Shown here in pieces: positions 12,284-32,104 of a stretch of DNA of 64,000 nt (the first letter of the stretch is position 1; every line of letters starts with the position of its first letter). This stretch comes from Paracoccaceae bacterium. Lineage in GTDB: Bacteria > Pseudomonadota > Alphaproteobacteria > Rhodobacterales > Rhodobacteraceae. A program made the translations under genes and the position numbers. The notes beneath the pieces are model-generated. The model searched no databases and had not been told where the DNA came from. It saw only the letters and a list, made by a program, of their open reading frames with translations. Location: contig JALSKC010000017.1 of the NCBI GenBank assembly GCA_026989055.1, forward strand, positions 1 through 64,000, read 5' to 3'.

Positions 12284-13063
12284 TCAGACCATCCGCTCGA
12301 TCATCATCTTCTTGATCTCGGCAATCGCTTTCGCCGGGTTCAGCCCCTTGGGGCAGGTCTTGGTGCAGTTCATGATGGTGTGGCAGCGAAAGAGCTTGAA
12401 CGGGTCTTCCAGCTGATCCAGCCGCTCGCCCGTGGCCTCGTCCCGGCTGTCGACGATCCAGCGATAGGCGTGCAGCAGCGCCGCCGGGCCAAGATACTTG
12501 TCGCCGTTCCACCAGTAGCTGGGGCAGGAGGTCGAGCAGGAGGCGCACATCACGCATTCATACAGCCCGTCGAGCTTCCTGCGGTCCTCGATCGACTGGC
12601 GCCATTCCCTTTCGGGGCGGTTGGTCCTGGTTTCCAGCCAGGGCATGATCGAGGCATGCTGGGCATAGAAATGGGTCAGGTCCGGGATCAGGTCCTTCAC
12701 CACCTCGGTATGCGGCAGCGGGTAGATCTTCACATCGCCCCTGATCTCGTCCAGCCCGCGAATGCAGGCCAGCGTGTTCACCCCGTCGATGTTCATCGCG
12801 CAGGAGCCGCAGATGCCCTCGCGGCAGGAGCGGCGGAAAGACAGCGTCGGGTCGATCTCGTTCTTGATCTTGATCAGCGCGTCCAGGACCATCGGTCCGC
12901 AGCTGTCCATGTCGACGAAATAGGTATCGACACGGGGGTTCTCGCCATCGTCCGGGTTCCAGCGATAGATCCGGAACCTGCGGATGTTCTTCGCGCCCTC
13001 GGGTTTCGGCCAGGTCTTGCCGACCCGCACCCGGCTGTTCTTCGGGAGTGTCAGTTGAACCAT
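12284..13063 (-). CDS. sdhB: Succinate dehydrogenase iron-sulfur subunit
   Basis: Carries the [2Fe-2S], [4Fe-4S] and [3Fe-4S] clusters that pass electrons from FAD to ubiquinone. The 259-residue protein has the plant-type ferredoxin motif [12 protein letters not shown], then [16 protein letters not shown] and [17 protein letters not shown] in the C-terminal domain, all cysteines intact. I chose the ATG at 13063, preceded by GAGGAGACGAGG, over the longer frame at 13099. It follows sdhA by 10 bp and completes the sdhC-D-A-B order. Confidence 0.96.
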
Positions 13064-13073
13064 CCTCGTCTCC

Positions 13074-14882
13074 TCAGTAAACCCGCTTCCTGGGCGCAAT
13101 CTTCTCCGGGTCGATGCCCCCCTGCTCCGCCGGCGTCAGCGGCTCGGTGTGCACGTCGCGATAGCTGAGGCTGACCGCGCCGTTCCCGTCCAGCCGCGCG
13201 ATGGTGTGCTTGCGCCAGTTCTCGTCGTCACGCTCGGGGTAGTCCTCGCGGGCATGCGAACCGCGGCTTTCCGTGCGCGCCTCGGCCGAATAGACGGTGG
13301 TGATGGCATTGGCCATCAGGTTGTGCAGCTCCAGCGTTTCCATCAGGTCTGAGTTCCAGATCAAGGAACGGTCGGTAACCCTGATGTCCTGCATCTCCTT
13401 CCAGATGGCGCTGATCGCGGCGCAACCCTCCTGCAGGGTTTCGGCGGTGCGGAAGACGGCGGCATCCTTCTGCATCGCCTTCTGCATCTTCAGCCGCACC
13501 TCGGCCGTGGGATTGGCGCCATCGGCGTGGCGGATGGAATCGAAGCGGTCGAGGATCTTTTCCACCTCGGCCCCCGGCCCCGCGGGAACCGCCCCCTGCC
13601 GATCGACGATCTGCCCCGCCCGGATCGCCGCCGCCCGCCCCAGAACGACGAGATCTATCAACGAGTTGGAGCCCAGCCGGTTGGCCCCGTGCAGCGAGGC
13701 GCAGGCCGCCTCGCCCACCGCCATCAGCCCCGGCACCACCGCATCGTGATCATCGGCGGTGGGGTTGAGCACCTCTCCCCAGTAGTTGGTGGGAATGCCG
13801 CCCATGTTGTAATGGACGGTGGGCAGAACCGGGATCGGATCCTTCGTCACATCGACGCCGGCAAAGATGCGCGCGCTTTCGGCGATGCCGGGCAGACGCT
13901 CCTCGATCACCTCGCGCGGCAGGTGGTTGAGGTTGAGGTAGATATGGTCCTTTTCCGGCCCCACCCCGCGGCCTTCGCGGATTTCCAGCGTCATGCAGCG
14001 CGAAACCACGTCGCGGCTGGCCAGATCCTTGTAGGTGGGGGCGTAGCGCTCCATGAAGCGCTCGCCTTCCGAATTGGTCAGATAGCCGCCCTCTCCGCGC
14101 ACCCCTTCGGTGATCAGCACCCCGGCGCCATAGATCCCGGTGGGATGGAACTGCACGAATTCCTGATCCTGCAGCGGCAGGCCGGCACGGGTGACCATGC
14201 CGCCGCCATCTCCGGTGCAGGTGTGCGCCGAGGTGGCGCTGAAATAGGTGCGCCCGGCCCCGCCGGTGGCCAGCACCACCAGCTTGGCGTTGAAACGGTG
14301 CAGCGTGCCGTCATCGAGCTTCCAGGCCATGATCCCGGTGCAGGCGCCATCCTCCGACATGATGAGATCGAGCGCGAAATGCTCGATGTAGAATTCCGCG
14401 TTCTGCTTCAGCGACTGCCCGTAGAGCGTATGCAGCATGGCATGCCCGGTGCGGTCGGCGGCGGCACAGGTGCGCTGCACGGGGGGGCCCTCGCCGAACT
14501 CGGTCGTGTGGCCACCGAAGGGGCGCTGATAGATCTTGCCCTCTTCGGTGCGCGAAAACGGCACCCCGTAATGTTCCAGCTCGTAGACGGCGCGCGGCGC
14601 CTCGCGGGTGACGTATTCGATGGTGTCGATGTCGCCCAGCCAGTCGCTGCCCTTCACCGTGTCATACATGTGCCACTGCCAGTTGTCGGGCCCCATGTTG
14701 CCCAGGGATGCGGCAATCCCGCCCTGGGCGGCCACGGTATGGCTGCGGGTGGGGAACACCTTGGTCACGCAGGCGGTGCGCAGCCCCTGCTCGGCCATGC
14801 CCAGCGTGGCGCGCAGGCCCGCGCCCCCGGCGCCGACCACCACCACATCGTAGTTGTGCGTCTCGTATTCGTAAGCGGCCAT
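13074..14882 (-). CDS. sdhA: Succinate dehydrogenase flavoprotein subunit
   Basis: Catalytic subunit of complex II; oxidises succinate to fumarate with covalent FAD. The 602-residue length is normal. The dinucleotide fold [13 protein letters not shown] is near residues 14-26, the FAD-attaching histidine is in the [10 protein letters not shown] segment, and the active-site region HPTGIYG and the substrate-binding [11 protein letters not shown] are intact. It is the third gene of the sdhCDAB operon; the operon's leader carries twin palindromic boxes (15787-15817). Confidence 0.97.
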
Positions 14883-14897
14883 TGGTTCGGATATCCC

Positions 14898-15269
14898 TCA
14901 GAGCGCAAGCCTGGCGATGGCGAAAATTCCGGTGGCGGCAGCCGCATAGGAAAGCCAGGCCATGACGATGATCGCCACCTCGCGCGCCAGACCCTGCACG
15001 TAATCCTCTATCAGCACCCGGACCCCGTTCCTGAAATGCAGGAAGCCGACAAGGAGCGTCAGCACCGCCACGATCGCCGGGAAGGGGCGGGCGTAATATG
15101 CCACCACCTCCTCGTGGGGGCGCCCCAACATCGGCCCGAAGGTGAAGACGAACAGCGGCACCAGAACCAGCAGGCCGGCGCTGCTCACGGTCTGCGCCCA
15201 GTGCCGGTCTGCCCCGCGCCGGGCCGATCCGGCCCCGGCCGCGCGCTTGTATGCTGTCAGGAACGACAT
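14898..15269 (-). CDS. sdhD: Succinate dehydrogenase membrane anchor subunit
   Basis: A 123-residue integral membrane protein with three hydrophobic helices (near residues 32-50, 63-80 and 98-118), forming with SdhC the heme b and ubiquinone site. The HFRNGVRVLIEDYV segment matches the conserved region around the heme histidine and the quinone pocket. It lies 9 bp after sdhC and 15 bp before sdhA in the same operon. Confidence 0.92.
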   Translation of the reverse strand: MSFLTAYKRAAGAGSARRGADRHWAQTVSSAGLLVLVPLFVFTFGPMLGRPHEEVVAYYARPFPAIVAVLTLLVGFLHFRNGVRVLIEDYVQGLAREVAIIVMAWLSYAAAATGIFAIARLAL

Positions 15270-15278
15270 TGCCCCCCC

Positions 15279-15662
15279 TCAGATGATCGCAAGCGTCAGG
15301 ATGGTCAGCAGGACCGAGCCGATGATCACGCCCCAGCCCAGCCGCTCCGCCGTCTCGAGCTCCAACCCGAAGCCGGCATCCCAGATCAGATGCCGCAGCC
15401 CGGCCAGCGCGTGATACCACAGCGCCCAGAGCGAAAGCAGCATCACCAGATCGCCCGCCCAGCCGGTCATCAGCCCGTCCACCGCGCCAAAGGCCGCCGG
15501 GGAAACCGAGGCCGCCAGGAACCAGGCCACGACCAGCAGCGCGCCGACCAGCAGCGCATTGCCGGTGATCCGGGTCAGGATCGAGGTGACCGAGGTCAGC
15601 TGCGGCCGGTAGATCGTGAGATGGGGTGAGAGCGGGCGCTTGCCCGGAGTGCTGTCCGCCAT
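15279..15662 (-). CDS. sdhC: Succinate dehydrogenase cytochrome b556 subunit
   Basis: First gene of the sdhCDAB operon; 127-residue cytochrome b anchor with three membrane helices. The family signature RPLSPHLTIYRPQLTS is at the N-terminus and the heme-ligand region WYHALAGLRHLIWDAG is in the second half. Two ATGs are close together: the one at 15668 touches the ribosome site, whereas the one at 15662 has AAGGGG at proper spacing and is preferred. The operon leader contains a pair of TGTGATCACG-type operators about 125-155 bp before the start. Confidence 0.93.
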   Translation of the reverse strand: MADSTPGKRPLSPHLTIYRPQLTSVTSILTRITGNALLVGALLVVAWFLAASVSPAAFGAVDGLMTGWAGDLVMLLSLWALWYHALAGLRHLIWDAGFGLELETAERLGWGVIIGSVLLTILTLAII

Positions 15663-15786
15663 ATGCATCCCCTTCGGAAGAGTCGGGTTATCTGCGACAA
15701 TCTGTTACTCCGATTTCGCCCCGGGCAACAGGCCCCGCCACGACAAGCCCCGGGTTTCCCCCGCGGAAGACCAGAATTACGGCATA

Positions 15787-15817
15787 TGTGATCACGTTAT
15801 GGAAATTCGTGATCACA
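15787..15817. promoter_or_regulatory. Twin palindromic operator upstream of sdhCDAB
   Basis: TGTGATCACG (15787-15796) and CGTGATCACA (15808-15817), start to start 21 bp, which is two helical turns. The same arrangement with the same spacing lies upstream of sucC (21441-21471). The 11-nt spacers share no sequence, so the boxes themselves are constrained. It is the most prominent element of the 412-bp gap between sdhC and mch; nothing coding is supported in that gap. The core GTGATCAC has the GT-N-AC form bound by FCD-type GntR regulators. Confidence 0.75.
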
Positions 15818-16047
15818 TCAACTGTTCCGCTGATACCGCTGCACCGGAGACCCGGCAGGTTCGCTACACATGGCGATACACACGGCAATCGCACCCTCGC
15901 GGATCGAGAAAGGCATCGGCCGCGCCTCTCCGCCCGCACCTCGGCGGCGCATCCGCCCGAACAGCCCATCGAGCACCTGCGCCCCCGAGACCCCGCGCAA
16001 CCTCTCCCCGGCTTGCGCATCGGCAACCGCCAGGACCGCCGGAACGG

Positions 16048-16057
16048 TGTGATCACG
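16048..16057. promoter_or_regulatory. Additional single TGTGATCACG box
   Basis: A third exact copy of the 10-mer, 17 bp after the end of mch and about 230 bp from the twin boxes. It could be an auxiliary operator for looping, or a relic. Confidence 0.45.
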
Positions 16058-16074
16058 CACTCCGGACACGGAGG

Positions 16075-17103
16075 TCAGCACGGCGCCAGCGCCCAGAAGT
16101 CCAGATCGAGCAGCACTTCGGGCAGGTATCTGCCGTCGGGTCCGCGCAGGGCGAAGGGCGCACCGGTGGTCGCCACAAGGCGCAAGCGCAGCGCCCCGAT
16201 GCCCGGCACCGGGGTTTCCGCCTTGTCGAGCACCTCGGACCAGGCGCGCAACGTGTCCCCGGCGAAACAGGGGTTGGCGTGGCTGCCAGCATTCAGGGCA
16301 ACCAGCGGCTGCGCATTGGCAAGCCCGTTGAAACTGAGCGCCCGCGCCATCGAGATCACATGCCCGCCATAGATCAGCCGCCGCCCGTCGTCGGGCCGCT
16401 GCGTCACGTCGAAATGCACCCGGGCGGTGTTCTGCCACAGCCGGGTGGCCATCATGTGTTCGGCCTCGCTGAGAGTCACCCCGTCAACATGGTCGATCCT
16501 TTCCCCGACCTTGTAATCTCCCCAGCGGTGGCGCTCCCCGGCCCCGGCAAAATCATAGGAGGAGAAATCCAGCCCCGCCGGCACCACGAGATCCCCGGGA
16601 GCCACCGCCGGGGCGAGTTCGGGCACTGCGGTTTCCGGCGCCGCCGCCTGCGGGTCGCGCTTGCGCACCATTACCCAGCGCACATAGCTGAGCACCGCCG
16701 CGCCGTGCTGGTTGAAGCCGGTGGTGCGCAACCAGACGATCCCCGACCTGCCGCCGGAGTTCTGCTTGAGTCCGATGATCTCGCTTTCGGCGCGCAGCGT
16801 GTCGCCGGGCCAGACCGGCGCCAGCCAGCGCCCCTCGGCATAGCCGAGGTTGGCCACCGCGTTCAGCGATATGTCGGGCACCGACTTGCCCAGCACCATG
16901 TGGAAGACGATCAGATCATCCAGCGGCGCGCCGGGCAGGCCGCAGCGGCGGGCGAACTCGTCCGACGAATACAGCACATGCCGCGCCGGATACAGCGCAT
17001 GATACAGCGCCCGTTCGCCCGGTCCCACCGTGCGCGGCACCGCATGGACGATCACCTCGCCCAGGCGGAAATCCTCGAAAAAACGCCCCGTCGTCGCCTT
17101 CAT
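16075..17103 (-). CDS. mch: Mesaconyl-CoA (2-methylfumaryl-CoA) hydratase
   Basis: Hydrates mesaconyl-CoA to beta-methylmalyl-CoA in the ethylmalonyl-CoA pathway. The 342-residue protein is built of two MaoC-type hotdog halves, the first around FEDFRLGEVIVHAVPRTV and the second around YKVGERIDHVDGVTLSEAEH, and the length agrees with characterised Rhodobacter Mch. The ATG at 17103 is chosen; the longer frame would run through the DUF1737 gene. It starts 2 bp after the DUF1737 stop, with GTGAGG before the ATG. Mcl2 upstream on the same strand supports a small ethylmalonyl-CoA operon. Confidence 0.93.
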   Translation of the reverse strand: MKATTGRFFEDFRLGEVIVHAVPRTVGPGERALYHALYPARHVLYSSDEFARRCGLPGAPLDDLIVFHMVLGKSVPDISLNAVANLGYAEGRWLAPVWPGDTLRAESEIIGLKQNSGGRSGIVWLRTTGFNQHGAAVLSYVRWVMVRKRDPQAAAPETAVPELAPAVAPGDLVVPAGLDFSSYDFAGAGERHRWGDYKVGERIDHVDGVTLSEAEHMMATRLWQNTARVHFDVTQRPDDGRRLIYGGHVISMARALSFNGLANAQPLVALNAGSHANPCFAGDTLRAWSEVLDKAETPVPGIGALRLRLVATTGAPFALRGPDGRYLPEVLLDLDFWALAPC

Positions 17104-17105
17104 CC

Positions 17106-17308
17106 TCACAGTTTCCCCAGCTCTGTTTCCGGCGAACGGCCCCCCTCGACCTCTTTCACCACCGCCTGTGCACAACGCATCTTCCCGGTGGCGGCGTCGA
17201 ACCCGCAGGCCGGGCTGCCGCAAGGCGCCCACCCCCGGCCGGGACTTCGCTCACCTTGTGGCAGAAGACCGAAGTGTCGTCTTCGGTCGGCAAGCGACAG
17301 GCTTTCAT
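17106..17308 (-). pseudogene. DUF1737 protein gene with a one-base frameshift
   Basis: The N-terminal half (MKACRLPTEDDTSVFCHKVS) reads from the ATG at 17308, preceded by GGAG; the C-terminal half (GWAPCGSPACGFDAATGKMR onwards, ending ETELGKL) reads in another frame to a stop at 17106. Together they give a complete DUF1737-type protein of about 67 residues. Restoring one base around 17240-17255, in the GC-rich run after VSE, rejoins them. Either a true mutation or a sequencing error in this run. The gene lies 2 bp before mch, where I recall intact DUF1737 genes in relatives. Function unknown. Confidence 0.65.
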
Positions 17309-17326
17309 CTTTCAGACTCCGAATCG

Positions 17327-17875
17327 TCAGGCGCCGAACGGGTTCACGCCCAGCCAGATGTGCAGCGCCGAGATGGCGCCATAGAGCACGATCGTGATCA
17401 CGGCGAGGCGGATGTCGCCCGCGCGCGTGCCCCCGGAAAAGCGCTCGGGCGCGGCTTCGGCCCGGTTGATGAGCGCCATCGAGATCAGCGCCCACAGCCC
17501 CAGCCCGCCGAACAGCACCAGCGAACGCAGGTCGCCGTTGGCGATCAGATGCGCCAGAGCCCAGAGCACCGCGCCCCACAGCATCGGATGGCGCAGCGCG
17601 CCGCGCAGCCGGCTCTTCGAATGCGCCGCCCCCACCAGCGCCAGCGCCGGGATCATCAGCAGGTTGTTCACCCCCTTGCCGGCCGCGCCCAGATCCCACA
17701 GCACGGTGGGGTCGGCCTGCCCGTAGCCCCGCACCATCAGCCAGATCGCCAGCAGCGACAGCAGCGCCACCACCCCCTTGCCGGCCCGGCCCATCCCGGC
17801 CCGCAAGCCGGGCGCCAGCCGCCCGAACCAGTGCGCGACAGCCCAGAGGCCGAGACCCGATATCAGCGTTCCCAT
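17327..17875 (-). CDS. nnrU: NnrU family membrane protein
   Basis: A 182-residue protein with five or six hydrophobic helices, matching the NnrU family first seen near nitric-oxide reductase genes (also related to zeta-carotene isomerase proteins). Landmarks are the N-terminal ISGLGLWAVAHWFGRLAPG and the SRLRGALRHPMLWG segment with its conserved HPM. No denitrification gene is in the window, so a direct role in NO metabolism is not supported. It overlaps the end of the mcl2 gene by 13 bp and probably belongs to the mcl2-mch transcript. Confidence 0.82.
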   Translation of the reverse strand: MGTLISGLGLWAVAHWFGRLAPGLRAGMGRAGKGVVALLSLLAIWLMVRGYGQADPTVLWDLGAAGKGVNNLLMIPALALVGAAHSKSRLRGALRHPMLWGAVLWALAHLIANGDLRSLVLFGGLGLWALISMALINRAEAAPERFSGGTRAGDIRLAVITIVLYGAISALHIWLGVNPFGA

Positions 17876-18735
17876 TCCGATTCCCTTTGCGTTATTGCTT
17901 CCGCCTTCGCCAGCGTGGCCCGGGCATCCGCCACATGCAGGTTTTCCACGATCCGCCCATCGACAACCGCCACCCCCCGGCCGGCGGCCTCGGCCTCCTC
18001 GAAGGCGGCGATCTGACGGCGGGCCAGCGCCACCTCCTCTTCCGACGGCGCGAACAGCTCGTTGGCCGCGGCCAGCTGCGCCGGGTGGATCAGCGTCTTG
18101 CCGTCAAAGCCGAAATCGCGCCCCTGGACGCATTCGGCCCGCAGGCCGGCCTCGTCGCGAAAGGCGTTGTATACCCCGTCGATGCAGATGATCCCGGCCG
18201 CCCGGGCCGCCAGCAGGGCATGCTGCAGAGCCGTCTGCAGCGGCACCCGCCCGGCACCCGCCCGGCAGCCCAGCTCGCGCGCCAGATCGTTCGTGCCGAG
18301 AACGAACCCGGCCAGCTCCGTATGCCCGGCGATCTCCGCGGCCGCCAGCACGCCGCGGGCGGTCTCCACCATCGCCCAGAGCGGGTGCCTGTCGCACAGT
18401 TCCAGCACCGCATCCAGATCGGCCGGCCCGTTGACCTTGGGGATCAGCAACCCGTCGATCCTGGCTTCGCGAAAGGCACGCGCATCATCCGCGCCCCAGG
18501 GCGTGTCAAGCCCGTTGATCCGCACCAGGCAGGCCCTGTCGCCGAAGCCGCCCCGCTCCAGAGCACCGCGCAGCGTTTCGCGCGCCCCCGCCTTGGCTTC
18601 GGGGGCCACCGCATCTTCCAGATCGAAGATGAAACCGTCCGCCGGCAGGGTGCGGGCCTTGTCCAGCGCGCGCCGGCTCGAGGCCGGAACATACAGCAGG
18701 CTGCGCCAGGGCCGGTGAAGCTGTTCCGTCTGCAT
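17863..18735 (-). CDS. mcl2: CitE-like malyl-CoA lyase / (3S)-malyl-CoA thioesterase
   Basis: A 290-residue member of the CitE/HpcH lyase superfamily. FIFDLEDAVAPEAK gives the acidic Mg2+ ligand region; VRINGLDTPWG and the VETARGVLAA motif with its glutamate line the CoA and metal site. The second metal-binding motif FVLGTNDLARELG is present. Rhodobacter has two paralogues: Mcl1, the lyase, and Mcl2, a (3S)-malyl-CoA thioesterase that lies with mch. The short N-terminus and the mch-mdh context favour Mcl2. The ATG at 18735 is preceded by GAAGAG; the longer frame has no supporting homology. The exact activity needs assay. Confidence 0.72.
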   Translation of the reverse strand: MQTEQLHRPWRSLLYVPASSRRALDKARTLPADGFIFDLEDAVAPEAKAGARETLRGALERGGFGDRACLVRINGLDTPWGADDARAFREARIDGLLIPKVNGPADLDAVLELCDRHPLWAMVETARGVLAAAEIAGHTELAGFVLGTNDLARELGCRAGAGRVPLQTALQHALLAARAAGIICIDGVYNAFRDEAGLRAECVQGRDFGFDGKTLIHPAQLAAANELFAPSEEEVALARRQIAAFEEAEAAGRGVAVVDGRIVENLHVADARATLAKAEAITQRESEWER

Positions 18736-20076
<1,341 letters not shown>

Positions 20077-20116
20077 CAGTCGCAGAGGCAGGGAAAACCC
20101 GACTTGCCCCCCGGAA

Positions 20117-20136
20117 GCCCCCGGATCTCCGGGGGC
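20117..20136 (+). terminator. Rho-independent terminator after mdh
   Basis: GCCCCCGG-ATCT-CCGGGGGC, an 8-bp perfect stem, followed by CTTCGTCTTTTT. Placed 40 bp after the mdh stop. Confidence 0.9.
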
Positions 20137-20164
20137 CTTCGTCTTTTTCATGCAGTTGCCTCAC

Positions 20165-20200
20165 GCAGTCAGCGGAGTATCCGCAGTCACCGGAGTATCC
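20165..20200 (+). repeat. 18-bp direct duplication carrying the ribosome site
   Basis: GCAGTCAGCGGAGTATCC followed at once by GCAGTCACCGGAGTATCC, one mismatch. The second copy ends one base before the ATG flank at 20202, so GGAGTAT of copy two is the ribosome-binding site and copy one supplies a spare. Confidence 0.9.
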
Positions 20201-20201
20201 A

Positions 20202-21419
20202 ATGCGTATTCTTTCCGTTCTTGCCGTTGCTCTTGCGCCCACGCTGGCCCTTGCAGGTGCGCAGAACGTTTCAACCGCCATCGCCGAAAAGGGGCTGGCC
20301 GCCACAGAAAGGGATCTGGCAAGCATTGCAGAGCCGTCGCCCGATGATCTGTTCGCACTTGGTGGCGTACGCTTCCTGCGCGGTATCGAGAAAACCATGC
20401 AGATCCGATGGCAGCACAATGCAACGCTCGACGAAGCCGGCAGATTTCCGAACCTGCCCGTGCTGCGTCTGCCGGTGGCCCCGAATCCGGCAGCCAGGCC
20501 GTTTCGCGCAGATCTGATAACCGAAATGTTCGCCACCCTCGGCGCCGACATGGAGCAGAGCCGCGCGGCGCTGGCCGCCATTCCCGAAGGCAGTGATCCG
20601 GCACTGGAAATCAATCTGCGTGATCTGTGGTTTGACGTGAACATGAATGCCAGGCGCGACGAAGGCGAAGACCTGATGATGATCGCCGCAACCTCGGTCC
20701 TGCCCCGCCGGGGCGGTGGCGCCGGGGCAGACATGCAGCCCGATCCCGTGGTGCGTTTCGACACCGCCGATGTCGCCTGGCTTTCGGCCTATACGCATCT
20801 GCTCTCGGGGCTGTCCGAACTGGTGATCGCCTTCGAACCCGCAACGGCCATCCAGGCCGTCATGGACAGCAATGCAAGACTGGCCGACCTGCGCGGCAAC
20901 ATCCCCCCCGGCAATGCCATGGAAATGCAGATGGGGCGGTTCGTGGATCAGTTCGCAATGGTCTATGGCGCGCTGAACCGCAGGCCCGATGCGGCCCACA
21001 CCCGGGCGGCACGCGAGCATTTCCTGGCAATGATCGCCGACAACCTGGTGTTCTGGACGAAACTGGCCGAGGAAACCGACAACGACCGCGAATGGATTCC
21101 CAATGACGATCAGCAGGCAGCACTTGGTTTCGAGGTGCCGCAGGGTGCCGGCGAGGCCTGGCTGGCGGTTCTGAAAGACGGAGAAGACATCCTGAACGGC
21201 AAGCTGCTTGTCCCGTACTGGCGGATTGCGCCGGCGGGCGGCGTGAATGTAAGGAAGATGTTCGATGATCCGCCGGCGGTGGATGTCGTTACCTGGGTTC
21301 AGGGCTCGGGGCTTCTGCCCTATCTCGAGCGCGGCCCGGTTGCCTCGTCCGAAAGCGTGCGGTCATTCGAACGGCTGGTATCGGGCGAAACGGCCCTGTT
21401 CGCCGTGCTTTTCAACTGA
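20202..21419 (+). CDS. Periplasmic protein of unknown function between mdh and sucC
   Basis: A 405-residue exported protein: signal peptide MRILSVLAVALAPTLALAG, cleavage near ALA-GA. The mature part is mainly helical and acidic, without membrane segments or a recognised catalytic motif; it contains repeated EA-rich helices and a DNDREWIPNDDQQ stretch near residue 305. I recall similar proteins beside sucC in Rhodobacterales, but no function is known to me. The ribosome site lies inside an 18-bp tandem duplication. It is separated from sucC by the twin operator, so it may end before the suc promoter. Confidence 0.75.
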   Translation: MRILSVLAVALAPTLALAGAQNVSTAIAEKGLAATERDLASIAEPSPDDLFALGGVRFLRGIEKTMQIRWQHNATLDEAGRFPNLPVLRLPVAPNPAARPFRADLITEMFATLGADMEQSRAALAAIPEGSDPALEINLRDLWFDVNMNARRDEGEDLMMIAATSVLPRRGGGAGADMQPDPVVRFDTADVAWLSAYTHLLSGLSELVIAFEPATAIQAVMDSNARLADLRGNIPPGNAMEMQMGRFVDQFAMVYGALNRRPDAAHTRAAREHFLAMIADNLVFWTKLAEETDNDREWIPNDDQQAALGFEVPQGAGEAWLAVLKDGEDILNGKLLVPYWRIAPAGGVNVRKMFDDPPAVDVVTWVQGSGLLPYLERGPVASSESVRSFERLVSGETALFAVLFN

Positions 21420-21440
21420 TCCGACGAATCCCGCGATGCA

Positions 21441-21471
21441 TGTGATCACGCACCCGCAAGGCGTGATCACA
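21441..21471. promoter_or_regulatory. Twin palindromic operator upstream of sucC
   Basis: TGTGATCACG (21441-21450) and CGTGATCACA (21462-21471), 21 bp start to start, 107-137 bp before the sucC start. Pair, order and spacing are identical to the sdh leader. Three bases after the second box are also shared (TAY in both). Confidence 0.75.
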
Positions 21472-21577: not shown

Positions 21578-22771
21578 GTGAACATACATGAATATCAGGC
21601 CAAGGCCCTGTTGCGCGAATGCGGCGCGCCGGTTTCCGACGGGCGGGTCGTCATGCGCGCGGAAGACGCCAAGGCGGCGGCCGGCCAGCTCGATGGTCCG
21701 GTCTGGGTGGTCAAGGCGCAGATCCACGCCGGCGGCCGCGGCAAGGGGCACTTCCGGGAAGCCGACGCCGGCGAAAAGGGCGGCGTGCGGGTGTGCCGTT
21801 CGGTCGAGGAAGCCGCCGAAGAAGCCGCCCGGATGCTGGGGCGCACCCTCGTCACCCGGCAGACCGGCCCCGCCGGCAAGCAGGTCAACCGCGTCTATAT
21901 CGAGGAAGGCGCCGACATTTCCCGCGAATTCTACCTCGCCCTGCTGGTGGACCGGCAGAGTGGCCGCGTCTCCTTCGTCTGCTCCACCGAGGGCGGGATG
22001 GACATAGAGGAGGTCGCGGCCGAGACGCCGGACAGGATCCTGTCGTTCAGCGTCGATCCGGCCACCGGCTACCAGGGATTTCACGGCCGGCGCATCGCCT
22101 TCGCCCTCGGGCTCCGGGGGCGGCAGGTCAAGCAATGCGTGTCGCTGATGGGCAGGCTCTACGGGCTGTTCGTCGAAAGGGACTGCGAAATGCTGGAAAT
22201 CAACCCTCTGGTGCTGACCGCCGAGGGCGATCTGCTCTGCCTGGACGCCAAGATGGGCTTTGACGACAACGCGCTCTGGCGCCACCCCGACATCGCCTCC
22301 CTGCGCGACGAAAGCGAGGAAGACCCGAAGGAGCTGGCCGCCTCCAAGTTCGACCTGAACTACATTTCGCTCGATGGCGAGATCGGCTGCATGGTCAACG
22401 GCGCCGGGCTGGCGATGGCGACGATGGACATCATCAAGCTCTACGGCTCGTCCCCTGCCAACTTCCTCGACGTGGGCGGCGGCGCCACCCGCGAAAAGGT
22501 GACCGAGGCGTTCAAGATCATCACCTCCGACCCGAACGTGAAGGGCATCCTGGTCAACATCTTCGGCGGCATCATGCGCTGCGACGTGATCGCCGAAGGG
22601 GTGGTCGCCGCGGTGAAGGAGGTCGGGCTGAAAGTGCCGCTGGTGGTGCGGCTCGAAGGCACCAACGTGGAAAAGGGCAAGGAAATCATCCGCGACTCGG
22701 GCCTCAACGTGATTGCGGCCGATGACCTGGCGGACGCCGCCGAGAAGATCGTCAAGGCGGTGAAGGGGTAG
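21578..22771 (+). CDS. sucC: Succinate-CoA ligase beta subunit
   Basis: ADP-forming succinyl-CoA synthetase beta chain; with SucD it converts succinyl-CoA to succinate with ATP formation. The 397-residue protein has the ATP-grasp N-terminus ([26 protein letters not shown]) and the C-terminal CoA-ligase domain ([16 protein letters not shown]). The start is a GTG at 21578; homology begins exactly there and the nearby ATG at 21588 is out of frame. First gene of the suc-lpd cluster, with the twin TGTGATCACG boxes in its leader. Confidence 0.96.
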
Positions 22772-22775
22772 GAAC

Positions 22776-23657
22776 ATGGCCATTCTCATCGACGAAAGCA
22801 CCCGCGTCATCTGCCAGGGCTTCACCGGCAGCCAGGGCACCTTCCATTCCGAACAGGCCATCGCCTACGGCACGAAGATGGTCGGCGGCGTGACCCCGGG
22901 CAAGGGCGGGCAGGAGCACCTGGGCCTGCCGGTGTTCGACTCGGTGCACGAAGCGGTGGAAAGGACCGGCGCCGATGCCAGCGTGATCTACGTGCCGCCG
23001 CCCTTCGCCGCCGATTCGATCCTGGAAGCGATCGATGCGGAAATTCCGCTGGTGGTGGCGATCACCGAAGGCATCCCGGTGCTCGACATGATGCGGGTCA
23101 GGCGGGCGCTGGAAGGTTCGCGAACCCGGCTGATCGGCCCGAACTGCCCCGGCGTGATCACACCCGATGCCTGCAAGATCGGCATCATGCCGGGCCACAT
23201 CCACAAGCGTGGCAGCGTCGGGGTGGTCAGCCGCTCGGGCACGCTGACCTACGAGGCGGTCAAGCAGACCACCGACGTCGGGCTGGGCCAGTCCACCTGC
23301 GTCGGCATCGGCGGCGATCCGATCAAGGGCACCGAGTTCATCGACGTGCTGGAGCTGTTCCTCGCCGATGCCGAGACCCAAAGCATCATCATGATCGGCG
23401 AGATCGGCGGCAGCGCCGAGGAAGACGCGGCGCAGTTCCTGCGCGACGAGGCGAAACGGGGCCGCAGGAAGCCGGTTGCCGGTTTCATCGCCGGGCTGAC
23501 GGCGCCGCCGGGGCGGCGGATGGGCCATGCGGGAGCCATCGTCGCCGGAGGCAGGGGGGATGCCGGCAGCAAGATCGAGGCGATGAAGTCGGCGGGCATC
23601 GTCGTCGCCGAAAGCCCGGCGGGGCTGGGACAGGCCGTGCTGAAGGCGATCGGATAG
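22776..23657 (+). CDS. sucD: Succinate-CoA ligase alpha subunit
   Basis: CoA-binding catalytic partner of SucC; 293 residues, normal length. [16 protein letters not shown] near the N-terminus is the CoA-binding Rossmann segment. The active-site histidine that is phosphorylated lies in the [11 protein letters not shown] motif near residue 250. It starts 4 bp after sucC. A CGTGATCACA 10-mer occurs inside the gene at 23153-23162 but is explained by the conserved GVITP coding sequence. Confidence 0.96.
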
Positions 23658-24514: not shown

Positions 24515-27481
24515 ATGACCGAACCCGCCCCGAACACCCGCCCTGGCGCCTCATCCGCCCTTCAGGGGCACAACGCTGCCTATATCGAACAGCTCCACGC
24601 CCGTTACGCCACCGATCCGAACGCGGTTGACGAAAGCTGGCGCGAATTCTTCCGCCAGCTGGGCGACAGCCCGGTGGATGCGCGGCGCGAGGCCGCCGGC
24701 CCCTCCTGGGCCCGTGCCGACTGGCCTCCGCAGCCTTCCGACGAGCTGACCGCCGCGCTCGATGGCCAGTGGCCCCCGGAGGCGTCGGAAAGGGAGGCCC
24801 GCGCCGCCGGGGAGAAGATCCGCGCCAGGGCCGCACGGTCGGGCGTCGAACTGTCCGATCAGGCGGTGCGCCGGGCGGTTCTGGACAGCATCCGCGCCCT
24901 GATGCTGATCCGCGCCTACCGGATCCGCGGCCATCTGGCCGCCGATCTCGACCCGCTGGGCCTGCGCCCGCACAGCGACCACCCCGAGCTGAACCCGGCC
25001 TCCTACGGCTTCACCGAAGCCGACATGGACCGCCCGATCTTCATCGACAACGTGCTCGGGCTGGAAATCGCCACCATGCGCCAGATCGTCGATATCGTGC
25101 AGCGCACCTATTGTGGCACCTTCGCGCTGCAATACATGCACATCTCGGATCCGGAGCAGTCGTCCTGGCTCAAGGAGCGGATCGAGGGCTACGGCAAGGA
25201 AATCCAGTTCACCCGCGAGGGCCGCAAGGCGATCCTGAACAAGCTGGTCGAGGCCGAGGGCTTCGAGAAGTTCCTGCATGTCAAGTACATGGGCACCAAA
25301 CGGTTCGGCCTGGACGGGGCCGAAAGCCTGATCCCGGCGATGGAGCAGATCATCAAGCGCGGCGGCGCGCTCGGGGTCAGGGAAATCGTGATCGGCATGC
25401 CCCACCGGGGCCGGCTGAACATCCTGGCCAACGTGATGGGCAAGCCCTACCGTGCCATATTCAACGAGTTCCAGGGCGGCAGTTTCAAACCCGATGACGT
25501 GGACGGCTCGGGAGATGTGAAATACCACCTGGGCGCCAGCTCCGACCGCGAATTCGACGGCAACAGGGTGCATCTTTCGCTCACCGCCAACCCCTCGCAC
25601 CTCGAAGCGGTCAACCCGGTCGTCCTGGGCAAGGCCCGCGCCAAGCAGGCGCAGCTGGGCGATGCCGAGCGCAGCCAGGTTCTGCCGCTGCTGCTGCATG
25701 GCGATGCCGCCTTCGCCGGCCAGGGGGTGGTGGCCGAGTGCTTCGGGCTTTCCGGGCTGGTGGGCCACCGAACCGGCGGCACCATGCATATCGTGATCAA
25801 CAACCAGATCGGCTTTACCACCGCGCCGCATTTCAGCCGATCCTCGCCCTATCCCACCGATATCGCGCTGATGGTCGAGGCGCCGATCTTCCACGTCAAC
25901 GGCGACGATCCGGAAGCGGTGGTGCACGCCGCAAAGGTGGCCACCGAGTTCCGCCAGAAGTTCCACAAGGACGTGGTGATCGACATCTTCTGCTACCGCC
26001 GCTTCGGCCATAACGAGGGCGACGAGCCGATGTTCACCAATCCGCTGATGTACAAGCGGATCAAGAAGCACAAGACGACGCTGCAGCTCTATACCGAGCG
26101 GCTGGTGCAGGACGGGCTGATCCCCGAGGGCGAGATCGAGGACATGAAGGCTGCCTTCCAGGCGCATCTGAACGACGAATTCGAGATCAGCAAGGACTAC
26201 CGCCCCAACAAGGCCGACTGGCTGGATGGCCGCTGGTCGCACCTGGACCGGCACGGCGAGGAATACCAGCGGGGCCAGACGGCGATTCCGCCCGAAACCA
26301 TGGCCGAGATCGGCCGCGCGCTCACCACCCTGCCCGAGGGCTTCCCCGTGCACCGGACGGTCGCCCGGCTGCTCGAGACCAGGAAGAAGATGTTCGACAG
26401 CGGTCGCGGTTTCGACTGGGCCACCGCCGAGGCGCTGGCCTTCGGCTCGCTGCTGCTGGAGAACTACCCGGTGCGCCTGGCCGGGCAGGACAGCACGCGC
26501 GGCACCTTCAGCCAGCGTCATTCGGGCATCATCGACCAGGAAAACGAGGAACGCTACTATCCGCTGAACCACATCCGCGACGGGCAGGCCCGCTTCGAGG
26601 TGATCGATTCGATGCTCTCGGAATACGCGGTTCTGGGCTTCGAATACGGCTACAGCCTGGCCGAACCCAACGCGCTGGTTCTGTGGGAGGCCCAGTTCGG
26701 CGATTTCGCCAACGGGGCGCAGATAATGTTCGACCAATTCATCAGTTCCGGCGAACGCAAGTGGCTGCGGATGTCGGGCCTCGTGGTGCTGCTGCCGCAT
26801 GGCTACGAGGGCCAGGGGCCGGAGCATTCCTCGGCCCGGCTCGAGCGCTTCCTCCAGATGAGCGCCGAGGACAACTGGATCGTCGCCAACTGCACCACGC
26901 CGGCCAACTACTTCCACATCCTGCGCCGGCAGCTGCACCGCACCTTCCGCAAGCCGCTGATCCTGATGACCCCGAAATCTCTCCTGCGCCACAGGATGGC
27001 GGTATCGGCGGCCGAGGATTTCACCACCGGATCCAGCTTTCACCGGGTTCTGTGGGACGACGCCCAGAAGGGCAACTCCGACACCCGGCTGGTCCCGGAC
27101 AACAAGATCAGACGGGTGGTGATGTGCTCGGGCAAGGTTTACTACGACCTGCTGGCCGAACGCGACGCCCGCGGCATCGACGATATCTACCTGCTGCGCA
27201 TCGAACAGTTCTACCCCTTCCCGGCGCTGTCGATGGTCAAGGAACTGTCGCGCTTCAAGCAGGCCGAAATGGTCTGGTGCCAGGAAGAACCCAAGAACCA
27301 GGGCGCCTGGAGCTTCATCGAGCCGAACATCGAATGGGTGCTGACAAGGATCGAGGCCGAGCGTACCCGCCCCGCCTATGTCGGCCGTCCGGCCGCCGCC
27401 TCGCCGGCGACCGGGCTCGGCAGCCAGCACAAGGAACAACAGGAAGCGCTGCTCAACGCCGCGCTGAGCATCGAGGGATAA
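24515..27481 (+). CDS. sucA: 2-Oxoglutarate dehydrogenase E1 component
   Basis: Thiamine-diphosphate-dependent decarboxylase of the 2-oxoglutarate dehydrogenase complex. At 988 residues it is slightly longer than the enterobacterial enzyme but normal for this order. Seen: the N-terminal E2-binding segment (HNAAYIEQLHARYATDP), the GMPHRGRLNIL region, the ThDP motif beginning GDAAFAGQG and ending INNQIGFTT, and the transketolase-like C-terminal part (GYEGQGPEHSSARLERFLQ). The ATG follows GAAGGAAGC. Followed at 6 bp by sucB. Confidence 0.97.
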   Translation: MTEPAPNTRPGASSALQGHNAAYIEQLHARYATDPNAVDESWREFFRQLGDSPVDARREAAGPSWARADWPPQPSDELTAALDGQWPPEASEREARAAGEKIRARAARSGVELSDQAVRRAVLDSIRALMLIRAYRIRGHLAADLDPLGLRPHSDHPELNPASYGFTEADMDRPIFIDNVLGLEIATMRQIVDIVQRTYCGTFALQYMHISDPEQSSWLKERIEGYGKEIQFTREGRKAILNKLVEAEGFEKFLHVKYMGTKRFGLDGAESLIPAMEQIIKRGGALGVREIVIGMPHRGRLNILANVMGKPYRAIFNEFQGGSFKPDDVDGSGDVKYHLGASSDREFDGNRVHLSLTANPSHLEAVNPVVLGKARAKQAQLGDAERSQVLPLLLHGDAAFAGQGVVAECFGLSGLVGHRTGGTMHIVINNQIGFTTAPHFSRSSPYPTDIALMVEAPIFHVNGDDPEAVVHAAKVATEFRQKFHKDVVIDIFCYRRFGHNEGDEPMFTNPLMYKRIKKHKTTLQLYTERLVQDGLIPEGEIEDMKAAFQAHLNDEFEISKDYRPNKADWLDGRWSHLDRHGEEYQRGQTAIPPETMAEIGRALTTLPEGFPVHRTVARLLETRKKMFDSGRGFDWATAEALAFGSLLLENYPVRLAGQDSTRGTFSQRHSGIIDQENEERYYPLNHIRDGQARFEVIDSMLSEYAVLGFEYGYSLAEPNALVLWEAQFGDFANGAQIMFDQFISSGERKWLRMSGLVVLLPHGYEGQGPEHSSARLERFLQMSAEDNWIVANCTTPANYFHILRRQLHRTFRKPLILMTPKSLLRHRMAVSAAEDFTTGSSFHRVLWDDAQKGNSDTRLVPDNKIRRVVMCSGKVYYDLLAERDARGIDDIYLLRIEQFYPFPALSMVKELSRFKQAEMVWCQEEPKNQGAWSFIEPNIEWVLTRIEAERTRPAYVGRPAAASPATGLGSQHKEQQEALLNAALSIEG

Positions 27482-27487
27482 CGGATC

Positions 27488-28711
27488 ATGTCCACGGAAG
27501 TTCGCGTGCCCACCCTGGGAGAAAGCGTCACCGAAGCTACCGTCGCCACCTGGTTCAAGCAACCGGGAGATACGGTAGCGGTCGATGAAATGCTGTGCGA
27601 GTTGGAAACCGACAAGGTGACGGTCGAAGTGCCGGCGCCGGTTGCCGGCGTGCTCGGCCGGATTGCCGCCCCCGAAGGCGAGACGGTCGCCGTCGATGCC
27701 CTTCTGGCGGTGATCGAGGAGGGCGCCACCGCCCCTGCCGCCGAGGCCGCCACCCCGGCGCCCGGGCCGGCCGCATCCCCCGCCTCCCCGCCGGGAGGGG
27801 ACATCGAGCATGCCCCTGCTGCGCGCAAGGCGATGGCCGAGGCCGGGTTGAGCCCGGAGCAGGTGCAGGGCACGGGCCGCGACGGCCGGATCATGAAGGA
27901 AGACGTGGCCCGGGCCGTGGCCGCCGGAGCACCGGCCGCAGCGCCGGCCGCCGAAACCGCGCCACCTCCCCCCGCCGCGGCGCCGCGCCCCCCGGTTGCC
28001 GCTGAAGACGAGGCCCGCGAGGAGCGGGTCAGGATGACCCGCCTGCGCCAGACCATCGCGCGGCGCCTGAAGGAGGCTCAGAACACCGCGGCGATCCTGA
28101 CCACCTACAACGAGGTGGACATGTCGGCGGTGATGGAGCTGCGCGACAGCTACAAGGAGCTGTTCCTGAAGAAGCACGGGGTGAAGCTCGGTTTCATGTC
28201 CTTCTTCACCAGGGCCTGCGTGCACGCGCTCAAGGAAGTGCCCGAAGTCAACGCCGAGATCGACGGAGACGAGATCGTCTACAAGCACTATGTCCACATG
28301 GGAATCGCGGTGGGCACGCCCTCGGGGCTGGTGGTTCCGGTGATCCGCAACGCCGACCGGATGTCCTTTGCCGAGATCGAGAAGGCGATTGCCGAAAAGG
28401 GCGCCCGCGCCCGCGACGGCAAGCTGTCGATGGAGGAAATGACCGGCGGAACCTTCACCATCTCCAACGGCGGGGTTTACGGCTCGCTCATGTCCTCGCC
28501 GATCCTGAACCCGCCGCAGTCGGGGATCCTCGGCATGCACAAGATCCAGGATCGCCCGGTCGCCATCGGCGGTGAAGTGGTGATCCGGCCGATGATGTAT
28601 CTTGCGCTGAGCTACGACCACCGTATCGTGGACGGCAAGGGCGCGGTGACCTTTCTGGTGCGGGTGAAGGAGGCGCTCGAAGATCCGCGCCGCCTGCTGA
28701 TGGATCTCTAG
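27488..28711 (+). CDS. sucB: Dihydrolipoyl succinyltransferase E2 component
   Basis: Core of the 2-oxoglutarate dehydrogenase complex. The 407-residue protein has one lipoyl domain (lipoylated Lys43 in ETDKVTVEV), a Pro/Ala-rich linker, a peripheral-subunit-binding domain around residues 112-147 ([19 protein letters not shown]), another Ala/Pro linker, and the acetyltransferase-type catalytic domain ending with [13 protein letters not shown] (catalytic His378 and Asp382). A single lipoyl domain and order sucA-sucB favour the succinyl- over the acetyltransferase. Confidence 0.96.
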
Positions 28712-29204: not shown

Positions 29205-30593
29205 ATGGCCAATTATGACGTGATCATCATCGGCGCCGGCCCCGGCGGCTATGTCTGCGCCATCCGCTGCGCCCAGCTGGGTCTGAAAACCGCGGTGGTC
29301 GAGGGGCGAGACACGCTCGGCGGTACCTGCCTGAACGTGGGCTGCATCCCCTCCAAGGCGCTTCTGCACGCCACCCACAGCCTGCACGAGGCCGAGCACA
29401 ACTTCGCCAGGATGGGGCTGAAGGGCAAATCCCCCTCGGTGGACTGGCCGCAGATGCAGGCCTACAAGGAGGAAGTCGTCGCCCAGAACACCAGGGGCAT
29501 CGAGTTCCTGTTCAAGAAGAACGGGATCGACTGGCTGAAGGGCTGGGGCTCGATCCCGGCGCCGGGCCAGGTGCAGGTGGGCGAGGAGGTGCACGAAGCC
29601 AGGAACATCGTCATCGCCACAGGTTCCGAACCGGCCACGATCCCCGGCGTCGAGATCGACGAAAAGCGGGTGGTCTCCTCTACCGGCGCGCTGTCGCTGG
29701 CGAAACCGCCGCGCAGGATGGTGGTGATCGGCGCCGGCGTGATCGGGCTGGAACTGGGCTCGGTCTATGCGCGCCTCGGGGCCGAGGTGACGGTGGTCGA
29801 ATATCTCGACGCGATCGCTCCGGGCATGGACAGGGACGTGCAGAAGACCCTGCAGAGGATCCTGAAAAAACAGGGGCTCCAGTTCATCCTCGGCGCCGAG
29901 GTCCAGGGCGTGAGCAGCACCAGGACCAAGGCCAGGGTCACCTGCCGGCTGAAAAGGGACGGCTCGGAAACGGTGCTGGATGCGGATGTCGTGCTGGTCG
30001 CCACCGGGCGCAGGCCGTTTACCGACGGGCTCGGGCTCGATGCGCTGGGCGTCGCCATGAGCGAGCGCGGCCGGATCGCCACCGACGCGCACTGGGCCAC
30101 CAACATCCCCGGCATCTACGCCATCGGCGACGCGATCGAAGGCCCGATGCTGGCCCACAAGGCCGAGGACGAAGGCATGGCGGTGGCCGAGGTGCTGGCC
30201 GGCAAGGCGGGCCACGTGAACTACGCGGTGATCCCCGGCGTGATCTACACCACCCCCGAGGTCGCCAGCGTCGGCGCAACCGAACAGGCGCTGAAGGACG
30301 CGGGCCGCGCCTGCAAGGTAGGCAAGTTTTCCTACATGGGCAATGCGCGCGCCAAGGCCGTGTTCCAGGCCGAGGGCTTCGTGAAGATCCTCGCAGACGC
30401 CGAGACCGACCGCATCCTGGGCGCCCATGTCATCGGCCCGGCGGCGGGCGAGATCATCCACGAGATCTGCGTGGCGATGGAATTCGGCGCCTCGGCCGAG
30501 GATCTGGCACTGACCTGCCACGCCCACCCCACCTGGTCGGAAGCGGTGCGCGAAGCAGCGCTCGCCTGCGGCGACGGGCCGATCCACGCCTGA
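29205..30593 (+). CDS. lpd: Dihydrolipoamide dehydrogenase E3 component
   Basis: Flavoprotein that reoxidises the lipoyl groups of SucB and passes electrons to NAD. The 462-residue protein begins with the FAD motif [20 protein letters not shown]; the redox disulfide is Cys42-Cys47 (TCLNVGC). The NAD motif [19 protein letters not shown] is in the middle, and the C-terminal HAHPTWSEA holds the catalytic His/Glu pair. AGGAG precedes the ATG. Being last in sucCD-sucAB-lpd, it probably serves this complex. Convergent with the GntR gene; no clear terminator is seen in the 116-bp gap. Confidence 0.96.
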
Positions 30594-30709: not shown

Positions 30710-31360
30710 TCAGGCTACCAGCATCCGCAGCCCCTGCGTCACATCCGTGCGCACGGCCAGCCGCAGCCCCGGTTCGTCGCCGGCCCGCAGGGCGGCCACG
30801 ATGGTGCGGTGATGCCTCGGCACCGCAGTGCGCTGCAACCGACCGTAGAGATGCCGCATGGTCGGCCCCAGCTGCAGCCAGACGGTTTCCACCATCGCCA
30901 GCATCGCCGGCGCCTGGGCGCGCAGGTAGAGCGTGCGGTGGAATTCCAGATTGGTCCGGATATAGCCGATCGCATCGCCCTTGGCGATAACCTCGGCCAG
31001 GGTCCGGTTGATCGCCTGCAGCCGGTCGTTCAGGGCCATGTGCGCCCGGGGCAGGGCACGCCCGGCCAGCTCCGGCTCCAGCAGGGCCCGGATCGCCGCC
31101 AGCTCCTCGATGCGCTCGTTGCTCAGTTCCGGGGTCGCGACCCGGCCGGAGACGCTCATCGTCAGCGCCCCCTCTGCCACCAGGCGGCGCACCGCCTCGC
31201 GCGCCGGCGTCATCGAGACACCGTATTGCCCCGCCAATCCGCGCAATGTCAGGGAATGACCGGGAGGCAGCTCGCCATGCATCACCCGCTGCCGCAGGCT
31301 GCGGTAGATCCGGTCATGAGCGAGGCTTGCGGTTTCCGGCGGACGCGGCGTGGCGAGCAT
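30710..31360 (-). CDS. GntR family regulator with FCD domain
   Basis: A 216-residue transcription factor. The N-terminal winged helix (residues about 14-75) has the expected SLRQRVMHGELPPG and YGVSMTPAREAVRRLVAEG segments; the C-terminal FCD domain (about 90-210) has the metal-binding histidines in LEFHRTLYLRA, TMRHLY and PRHHRTIV. FCD ligands are typically small organic acids. A TGTGATCACG box lies 8 bp upstream of the ATG, and the same box in pairs precedes sdhC and sucC; the gene is beside lpd. I infer that it controls TCA genes in response to an acid such as 2-oxoglutarate. A TCA regulator called AkgR is reported from R. sphaeroides; whether it is the same protein I cannot tell. Confidence 0.85.
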   Translation of the reverse strand: MLATPRPPETASLAHDRIYRSLRQRVMHGELPPGHSLTLRGLAGQYGVSMTPAREAVRRLVAEGALTMSVSGRVATPELSNERIEELAAIRALLEPELAGRALPRAHMALNDRLQAINRTLAEVIAKGDAIGYIRTNLEFHRTLYLRAQAPAMLAMVETVWLQLGPTMRHLYGRLQRTAVPRHHRTIVAALRAGDEPGLRLAVRTDVTQGLRMLVA

Positions 31361-31367
31361 GGCCCAA

Positions 31368-31377
31368 TGTGATCACG
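31368..31377. promoter_or_regulatory. TGTGATCACG box at the GntR gene start
   Basis: Exact 10-mer, overlapping the stop codon of the upstream YgjP-like gene and ending 8 bp before the GntR ATG. Binding here could block translation-start access or transcription reading in from upstream, consistent with autoregulation. A single box, unlike the pairs at sdh and suc. Confidence 0.5.
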
Positions 31378-32104
31378 GCCGGGCCGGGCTGTCAACCGCC
31401 CGCCCCTGCTCCCGGTCCTCGAACCGATAGGCATGCAGCAGTGCCGCGTTGTCGCGCAGCCAGCGGCGCGACGCCCGGAAGCCGGGGCTGATCCGCTCCA
31501 CCAGGGCCCAGAAGGCCGGAGAATGGTTCATCTCGCACAGATGCGCCATTTCATGGGCGGCCACATAGTCCAGCACCTCGGGCGGCGCCATGATCAGGCG
31601 CCAGGAGAACATCAGCCGCCCCCGGTCCGAGCAGGAGCCCCAGCGCGAGCGGGGATCGCGCAGGCTGATCTGCGCCGCCCGGCGCCCGAGCAGGGGGGCG
31701 TATCCGTCACATGCCGCCACCAGCCGACGGCGCGCCAGATCCCGGAACAGGGCCGCCACCCGCATCCCCGCCCGCCCGGAGCGCTCGGGCACCAGCACCG
31801 CCCCCTCCCGGATGCAGGCCGCCTCCACATCGACTGCCAGAACCGGCAGCATCCTGCCTTCGAAGGGGATCTCGGCTCCGATTCCCACCCGGATCGGTGG
31901 CGGACAGCGGGCAATCTGGCGCCTGATCCAGCCCTCCCGTTCGCGGGCGAATTCCAGAGCCGCACGACGCGGAGCCCAGCGCGGCATCGACAATGTAACC
32001 GTGCCGTCCAGCCTCGACACCCGCAGCGACAGCCGCCGCGCCGAAGCGCTCCGGCGCAGCCGCACCTCGAGCGGCGGATTGCCCTCCAGTATCAGCGGCT
32101 GCAT
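31373..32104 (-). CDS. YgjP-like (DUF45) zinc metallopeptidase
   Basis: A 243-residue protein of the YgjP/DUF45 family. The zinc motif HEMAH is at residues 184-188 with a further histidine at 194 (MNHSPAFW), and the family motif RWGSCS is at 154-159. Members are called SprT-like or M48-type metal-dependent hydrolases; the substrate is unknown. No signal peptide, so cytoplasmic. It is transcribed towards the GntR gene with a 12-bp gap, so the two may be one operon starting in the divergent region before 32326. Confidence 0.85.
   Translation of the reverse strand: MQPLILEGNPPLEVRLRRSASARRLSLRVSRLDGTVTLSMPRWAPRRAALEFAREREGWIRRQIARCPPPIRVGIGAEIPFEGRMLPVLAVDVEAACIREGAVLVPERSGRAGMRVAALFRDLARRRLVAACDGYAPLLGRRAAQISLRDPRSRWGSCSDRGRLMFSWRLIMAPPEVLDYVAAHEMAHLCEMNHSPAFWALVERISPGFRASRRWLRDNAALLHAYRFEDREQGRAVDSPARP

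Follow-up and report, generated by a model that had tools for sequence, protein, structure and literature searches.

The window (the whole stretch of DNA analysed, 64,000 nucleotides of contig JALSKC010000017.1 from a Paracoccaceae bacterium) carries the sdhCDAB operon on its minus strand, the sucCDAB-lpd operon on its plus strand and the gene of an FCD-type GntR regulator. The features considered are the following.

12284..13099, minus strand: sdhB (Pfam)
13074..14882, minus strand: sdhA (Pfam)
14898..15269, minus strand: sdhD (Pfam Sdh_cyt)
15279..15668, minus strand: sdhC (Pfam Sdh_cyt), with a second in-frame ATG at 15662
15702..15707, minus strand: TAACAG, putative sdhC minus-10 element
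15723..15728, minus strand: TTGCCC, putative sdhC minus-35 element by position; the proximal octamer is 59 bp away, against a family mode of 58-59
15788-15795 and 15809-15816: twin palindrome of two GTGATCAC octamers, centres 21 bp apart, candidate AkgR activation site of sdhCDAB
17394..17401, unstranded: single octamer, possible third target, lying 161 bp ahead of a mesaconyl-CoA hydratase gene on the minus strand (16075-17232)
21442-21449 and 21463-21470: twin palindrome of two GTGATCAC octamers, centres 21 bp apart, candidate AkgR activation site of sucC
21578..22771, plus strand: sucC (Pfam)
22776..23657, plus strand: sucD (Pfam)
24515..27481, plus strand: sucA, 2-oxoglutarate dehydrogenase E1 (Pfam)
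27488..28711, plus strand: sucB, E2 (Pfam)
29205..30593, plus strand: lpd, E3 (Pfam)
30710..31360, minus strand: FCD-type GntR regulator (Pfam GntR and FCD above cut-off), putative orthologue of RSP_0981 (AkgR)
31369-31376 (site 31368..31377, TGTGATCACG): single octamer in the akgR promoter, putative autorepression operator
31390..31395, minus strand: TTGACA, putative akgR minus-35 element, 13 bp from the octamer (14 from TTGAC)

The 405-aa ORF at 20202-21419, between mdh and sucC, had no Pfam match.

The leaders of both operons contain the same 31-bp element, TGTGATCACG-N11-CGTGATCACA, at 15787-15817 before sdhCDAB and at 21441-21471 before sucCDAB-lpd. As the original prediction had described them, the two palindrome pairs are identical, exact, intergenic and in the same order. 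The left box is bounded by sdhC and by the mesaconyl-CoA hydratase gene, whose 3' end faces it; the right box lies between the gene at 20202-21419, for which no family was assigned, and sucC. The distance to the start codon is 107 bp for sucC and, for sdhC, 119 bp from the first ATG or 125 bp from the second; the 125 bp given originally fits the second, a reasonable choice because many relatives' alignments begin there. Across the whole host genome (2.77 Mb, 83 contigs) we found no third 31-bp box with up to three mismatches, nor any other pair of GTGATCAC octamers with 5-30 bp between them. Exact twins are expected from base composition at about 0.0002 per genome, and none of 100 shuffles contained the box. 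The reversed pattern had no matches in the genome, a weak control because the reversed octamer includes CTAG, a rare word in bacteria. Shuffles, the genome-wide pair search and the ORF positions ruled out chance and a coding-sequence origin.

Across the family, we found the twin octamer in 175 of the 198 genomes sampled, mostly two per genome, in a search that permitted 9-14 bp between octamers. Of 90 distinct family boxes with octamers separated by 12 or 13 bp, 52 stand before sucC, 36 before sdhC and one each before sucA and fumC, so that the proposed check for the pattern before sdh and suc in relatives came out positive in 88 of 90 boxes. Since so many genomes carry the twin octamer, and in these positions, the twin boxes are not chance. 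Where a named orthologue locus extended 180 bp or more ahead of sucC, an exact twin was always present (12 of 12). Family boxes lie 96-154 bp (median 109) before sucC and 101-185 bp (median 126) before sdhC. Their outer flanks are symmetric, with T before the first octamer and A after the second in 51/52 and 52/52 sucC boxes and in 30/36 and 29/36 sdhC boxes, and the spacer middle is A+T-rich (0.77 for sucC, 0.68 for sdhC); the window's own boxes fit this flank and spacer pattern more poorly.

A class-wide sample of 289 genomes had the twin in five family members and in five genomes outside the family, and no strong AkgR match was found in the latter five. Three of these non-family twins resemble chance matches in ORFs, and the twins of L128 and L129, from one non-family genus, adjoin TonB-receptor genes. 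At L129 (positions 992-1020; G324, another family) the twin octamer has a TonB-receptor gene on one side and the gene of another FCD-GntR protein on the other; it precedes the latter, and this type of site appears to serve other regulators too.

The original prediction placed the two palindromes on one DNA face, and this 21-bp register is kept in the family. Octamer centres are 21 bp apart (N13) in 79 of the 88 sdhC and sucC boxes and 20 bp apart (N12) in 9. In two genera (L218 and L219, from G135 and G191) sucC is preceded by three GTGATCAC octamers, at 1501, 1522 and 1543, which follow one another at exactly 21 bp, with the extra octamer on the upstream side.

In most relatives, the sdhC leader shows GTGACW and, after it, a minus-10-like hexamer rich in T and A. 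Among the leaders fetched, GTGACW was present in 27 of 36 for sdhC vs 1 of 52 for sucC, and in two of the 36 GTGAC was found two turns further off; the window's sdhC leader lacks GTGACW. We searched 394 genomes for a twin with GTGACW 46-76 bp downstream, obtaining 261 matches with 150 listed. Two rows were dropped (G146, with its box before sucC in L033, and a second G518 row on the opposite strand), which included the odd gaps 66 and 55; the sdhC context of the 148 sites kept was judged from the GTGACW rates in the fetched leaders. Among the matches listed, the gap from box to GTGACW was 55-61 bp in 131 of 148 sites, 47-50 bp in 7 and 69-71 bp in 10, with none elsewhere, and all 148 were at most 2.4 bp off whole turns of 10.5 bp. 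Because the 131 sites define the reference, the test of phasing is carried by the other 17. In 20,000 uniform placements none equalled the observed phase (18 off-reference gaps, among the matches listed), the genomes being nearly all from different genera, though not independent. The gap was 0.7 bp longer on average for 20-bp boxes (15 vs 133 sites among the matches listed, p 0.0016). Phasing before sucC, measured to GTGCMA, was noisy: 53 of 77 gaps were 64-68 bp and 5 were 56 bp, the remainder being mixed with wrong-strand or wrong-gene matches. At sdhC the distance from the box to the putative minus-35 is, among the matches listed, kept at whole turns, which argues for activation.

The FCD-GntR gene beside lpd had been named as the obvious candidate for the binding protein, and its distribution agrees with that of the box. 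The gene was scored as present where it matched at E <= 1e-40, as it did in 178 of 198 family genomes. By this measure its presence or absence goes with that of the box in 189 genomes (both in 172, neither in 17; Fisher p 7e-17, uncorrected for kinship). Three genomes have the box only (G019, G096, G114) and six the gene only (G040, G054, G122, G147, G155, G166). These nine include three drafts 71-77% complete and two more at 76-91%, and G040 has a twin with one mismatch (15/16) before sucC. In the 17 genomes with neither, the start of the SucC orthologue could be read in 15, and 13 of the leaders score as random DNA; the leaders of L193 and L197, where box and gene are both absent, score 13 and 12 of 16 and are possibly decayed boxes. 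On the SucC tree, which has few well-supported branches, the state of box and gene would need eight changes, and their joint loss may have been one single event.

The same gene was predicted to have a box of its own, and TGTGATCACG is indeed found at 31368-31377, the octamer ending 8 bp ahead of the akgR start codon. In 68 of 80 named orthologue loci the regulator's promoter carries the octamer, vs 1.1% of random 120-bp windows; the exact octamer is missing in 12 loci, 7 of which are no better than 5/8. Of the 68 loci that carry it, 66 have TTGAC no more than 45 bp ahead of the octamer, 65 at 12-17 bp and 43 at 13 bp. In some loci the stop codon of the upstream gene may explain part of this conservation; in L054, L055, L058, L060 and L062 TTGAC is kept despite other upstream sequence. 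As the octamer sits between the minus-35 and the start codon, binding there should block akgR transcription, and a single octamer in this promoter therefore argues for autorepression.

The AlphaFold model of the regulator is poor (pLDDT 65, pTM 0.39), with an all-helical C-terminal half. The positions that we presume to form its metal site, N137, H141, H184 and D206, are invariant in 30 of 30 orthologues; the assignment is our own and made on this poor model. The ligands of the FCD metal-binding subgroup are an Asp and three His, so that N, H, H and D would be unusual if the assignment is right. The best match among solved structures, at E 6e-24 for the orthologue profile, was McbR (4p9f), which has GntR/FCD architecture and comes from a different organism; its targets differ from those of the host regulator.

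AkgR is reportedly RSP_0981, described in a 2015 mBio study as a direct activator of TCA genes. The octamer GTGATCAC is the reported motif of Rhodobacter sphaeroides AkgR, a transcriptional activator (PMC6365646). The excerpted text of PMC4344238 has the GntR-family RSP_0981 predicted to control the genes of succinyl-CoA synthetase, succinate dehydrogenase and 2-oxoglutarate dehydrogenase. Because this motif and these predicted targets coincide with those seen here, the twin palindromes are very probably binding sites of AkgR, and motif, targets and family-wide conservation together suggest that the GntR/FCD protein encoded at 30710-31360 is its orthologue. The regulator, its motif and its main targets are thus already described, and the genome studied here adds a further instance of a known system: the type of regulator (FCD/GntR), the motif, the sdh, suc and akgdh targets and the alphaproteobacterial family are all shared with the R. 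sphaeroides regulon. The host's twin boxes, found before sdhCDAB and sucCDAB-lpd only, match the regulon's targets, and in the host genome the akgR gene adjoins lpd. The same octamer is used by PS417_07240-type FCD-GntR proteins of Pseudomonas deoxyribonate clusters, 32% identical to AkgR, for which a site was proposed that consists of a single octamer near their own gene and belongs to a different pathway; the motif is common to more than one FCD-GntR protein (PMC6365646). We found no report of the 21-bp register, the triple arrays, the helical phasing or the lone own-promoter octamer in the literature searched, which did not cover the original 2015 mBio account, and no match for the motif together with Rhodobacter as literal text.

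Beside the computed results on boxes, positions, conservation, co-occurrence and phasing, we infer binding by the host protein, activation through polymerase contact, cooperativity and autorepression. The reading that we favour, to which we give a probability of roughly 0.85 on sequence evidence, is that the FCD-GntR protein encoded at 30710-31360 binds the twin boxes, activates sdh and suc and represses its own gene. One AkgR dimer would occupy each GTGATCAC octamer, so that two dimers, presumably binding cooperatively, would sit on the same side of the helix, 21 bp (two helical turns) apart, ahead of the promoters of sdhCDAB and sucCDAB-lpd. Such paired dimers, about 100 bp upstream of the probable start and in phase with the promoter, would activate by contacting polymerase, and activation of sdh and suc would switch three consecutive TCA steps (2-oxoglutarate to fumarate) together. 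Autorepression of akgR would act through the lone octamer, which lies downstream of the minus-35 and ahead of the start codon.

The number and position of octamers may set the mode of action. We consider it an even bet that one octamer works in two ways, with 21-bp arrays acting as a class-I-like activation platform and a lone octamer as the site of an autorepressor. The chances are equally balanced that the upstream arrays of two, sometimes three, dimers need the right helical face, and the displacements of the sdh site by 10-11 bp in different genera may or may not, with similar odds, be natural replicas, made by evolution, of a helix-phasing experiment. On the favoured reading, control of three consecutive TCA steps would be nearly universal in the family and tied to one regulator gene. 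What most merits pursuit is the geometry. It offers ready tests for transcription activation by an FCD-GntR protein; an earlier blind observation is now tied to a described regulator of central carbon metabolism.

Most studied FCD-GntR proteins are repressors, and the original prediction spoke of an operator; its site, regulator and targets are supported, but the position of the sdh box and its helical phase point to activation. Repression of sdh and suc through the twin boxes is accordingly improbable: the sdh minus-35 follows the end of the box by 55-61 bp at 131 of 148 sites among the matches listed, boxes that have moved stay in phase, and PMC6365646 presents AkgR as an activator of transcription. 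That the true binder is another FCD-GntR protein, the 40% identical paralogue at G000:C21:47008-47601, would be compatible with its membership of the same family, with a second query match in part of the family genomes and with the use of the GTGATCAC motif by more than one such protein (PMC6365646; the L129 FCD gene with its own twin box). This paralogue has no octamer nearby, however, those on C21 being only at 43269 and 56820 among the matches listed; many box-bearing genomes have a single match, the orthologue, and 68 of 80 loci carry the octamer in the promoter of the orthologue itself, which makes the paralogue a very unlikely binder.

The arms of the 31-bp element are exact reverse complements and each window box lies downstream of a co-directional gene, so that a hairpin formed by the nucleic acid, with a 10-bp stem and an 11-base loop, might be considered, for instance as a terminator or processing site. 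We regard it as highly implausible, since each octamer is itself palindromic, a property that a hairpin could do without, the boxes are not followed by a T run, the akgR site is a single octamer, triple arrays hold the 21-bp register, the distance to the sdh minus-35 shifts only by whole turns (among the matches listed) and the element co-occurs with a regulator gene. A CRP/FNR-type protein binding the TGTGA and TCACA half sites is more far-fetched still: these resemble the consensus TGTGA-N6-TCACA, but across the whole family they abut without a spacer, so that the N6 spacing is not present, and R. sphaeroides is discussed as having no CRP counterparts in the excerpted text of PMC4344238.

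The plain octamer GTGATCAC occurs 116 times in the host genome, so that single-octamer targets of AkgR may exist elsewhere in it. Its extended form TGTGATCACR has 18 distinct sites (20 rows), 7 on the window's contig; a mechanical ORF list places 10 of the 11 elsewhere within ORFs and the remaining one at an ORF junction. Since these sites lie in ORFs or at an ORF junction and there is no third twin, icd, gltA and acn, which had been suggested as further targets, found no support in the host genome. The octamer before the mesaconyl-CoA hydratase gene has counterparts 124-161 bp before the gene in 3 of 5 relatives with at least 247 bp of usable upstream sequence, rows with a start projected outside the locus having been discarded. 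Another intergenic octamer (16049-16056) is found just beyond the end of the mesaconyl-CoA hydratase ORF, at a distance of 232 bp from the twin box of sdhCDAB. Elsewhere in the family, the fumC box (L023 1501-1529, G042) follows sspB and lies 124 bp before fumC, which it marks as an additional TCA target in this one genome. Finally, sucC leaders have a conserved GAAAACCGTTT-like block 38-50 bp past the box, ahead of the putative promoter; as a lead, this block may be a LacI-type site, conceivably of CceR.
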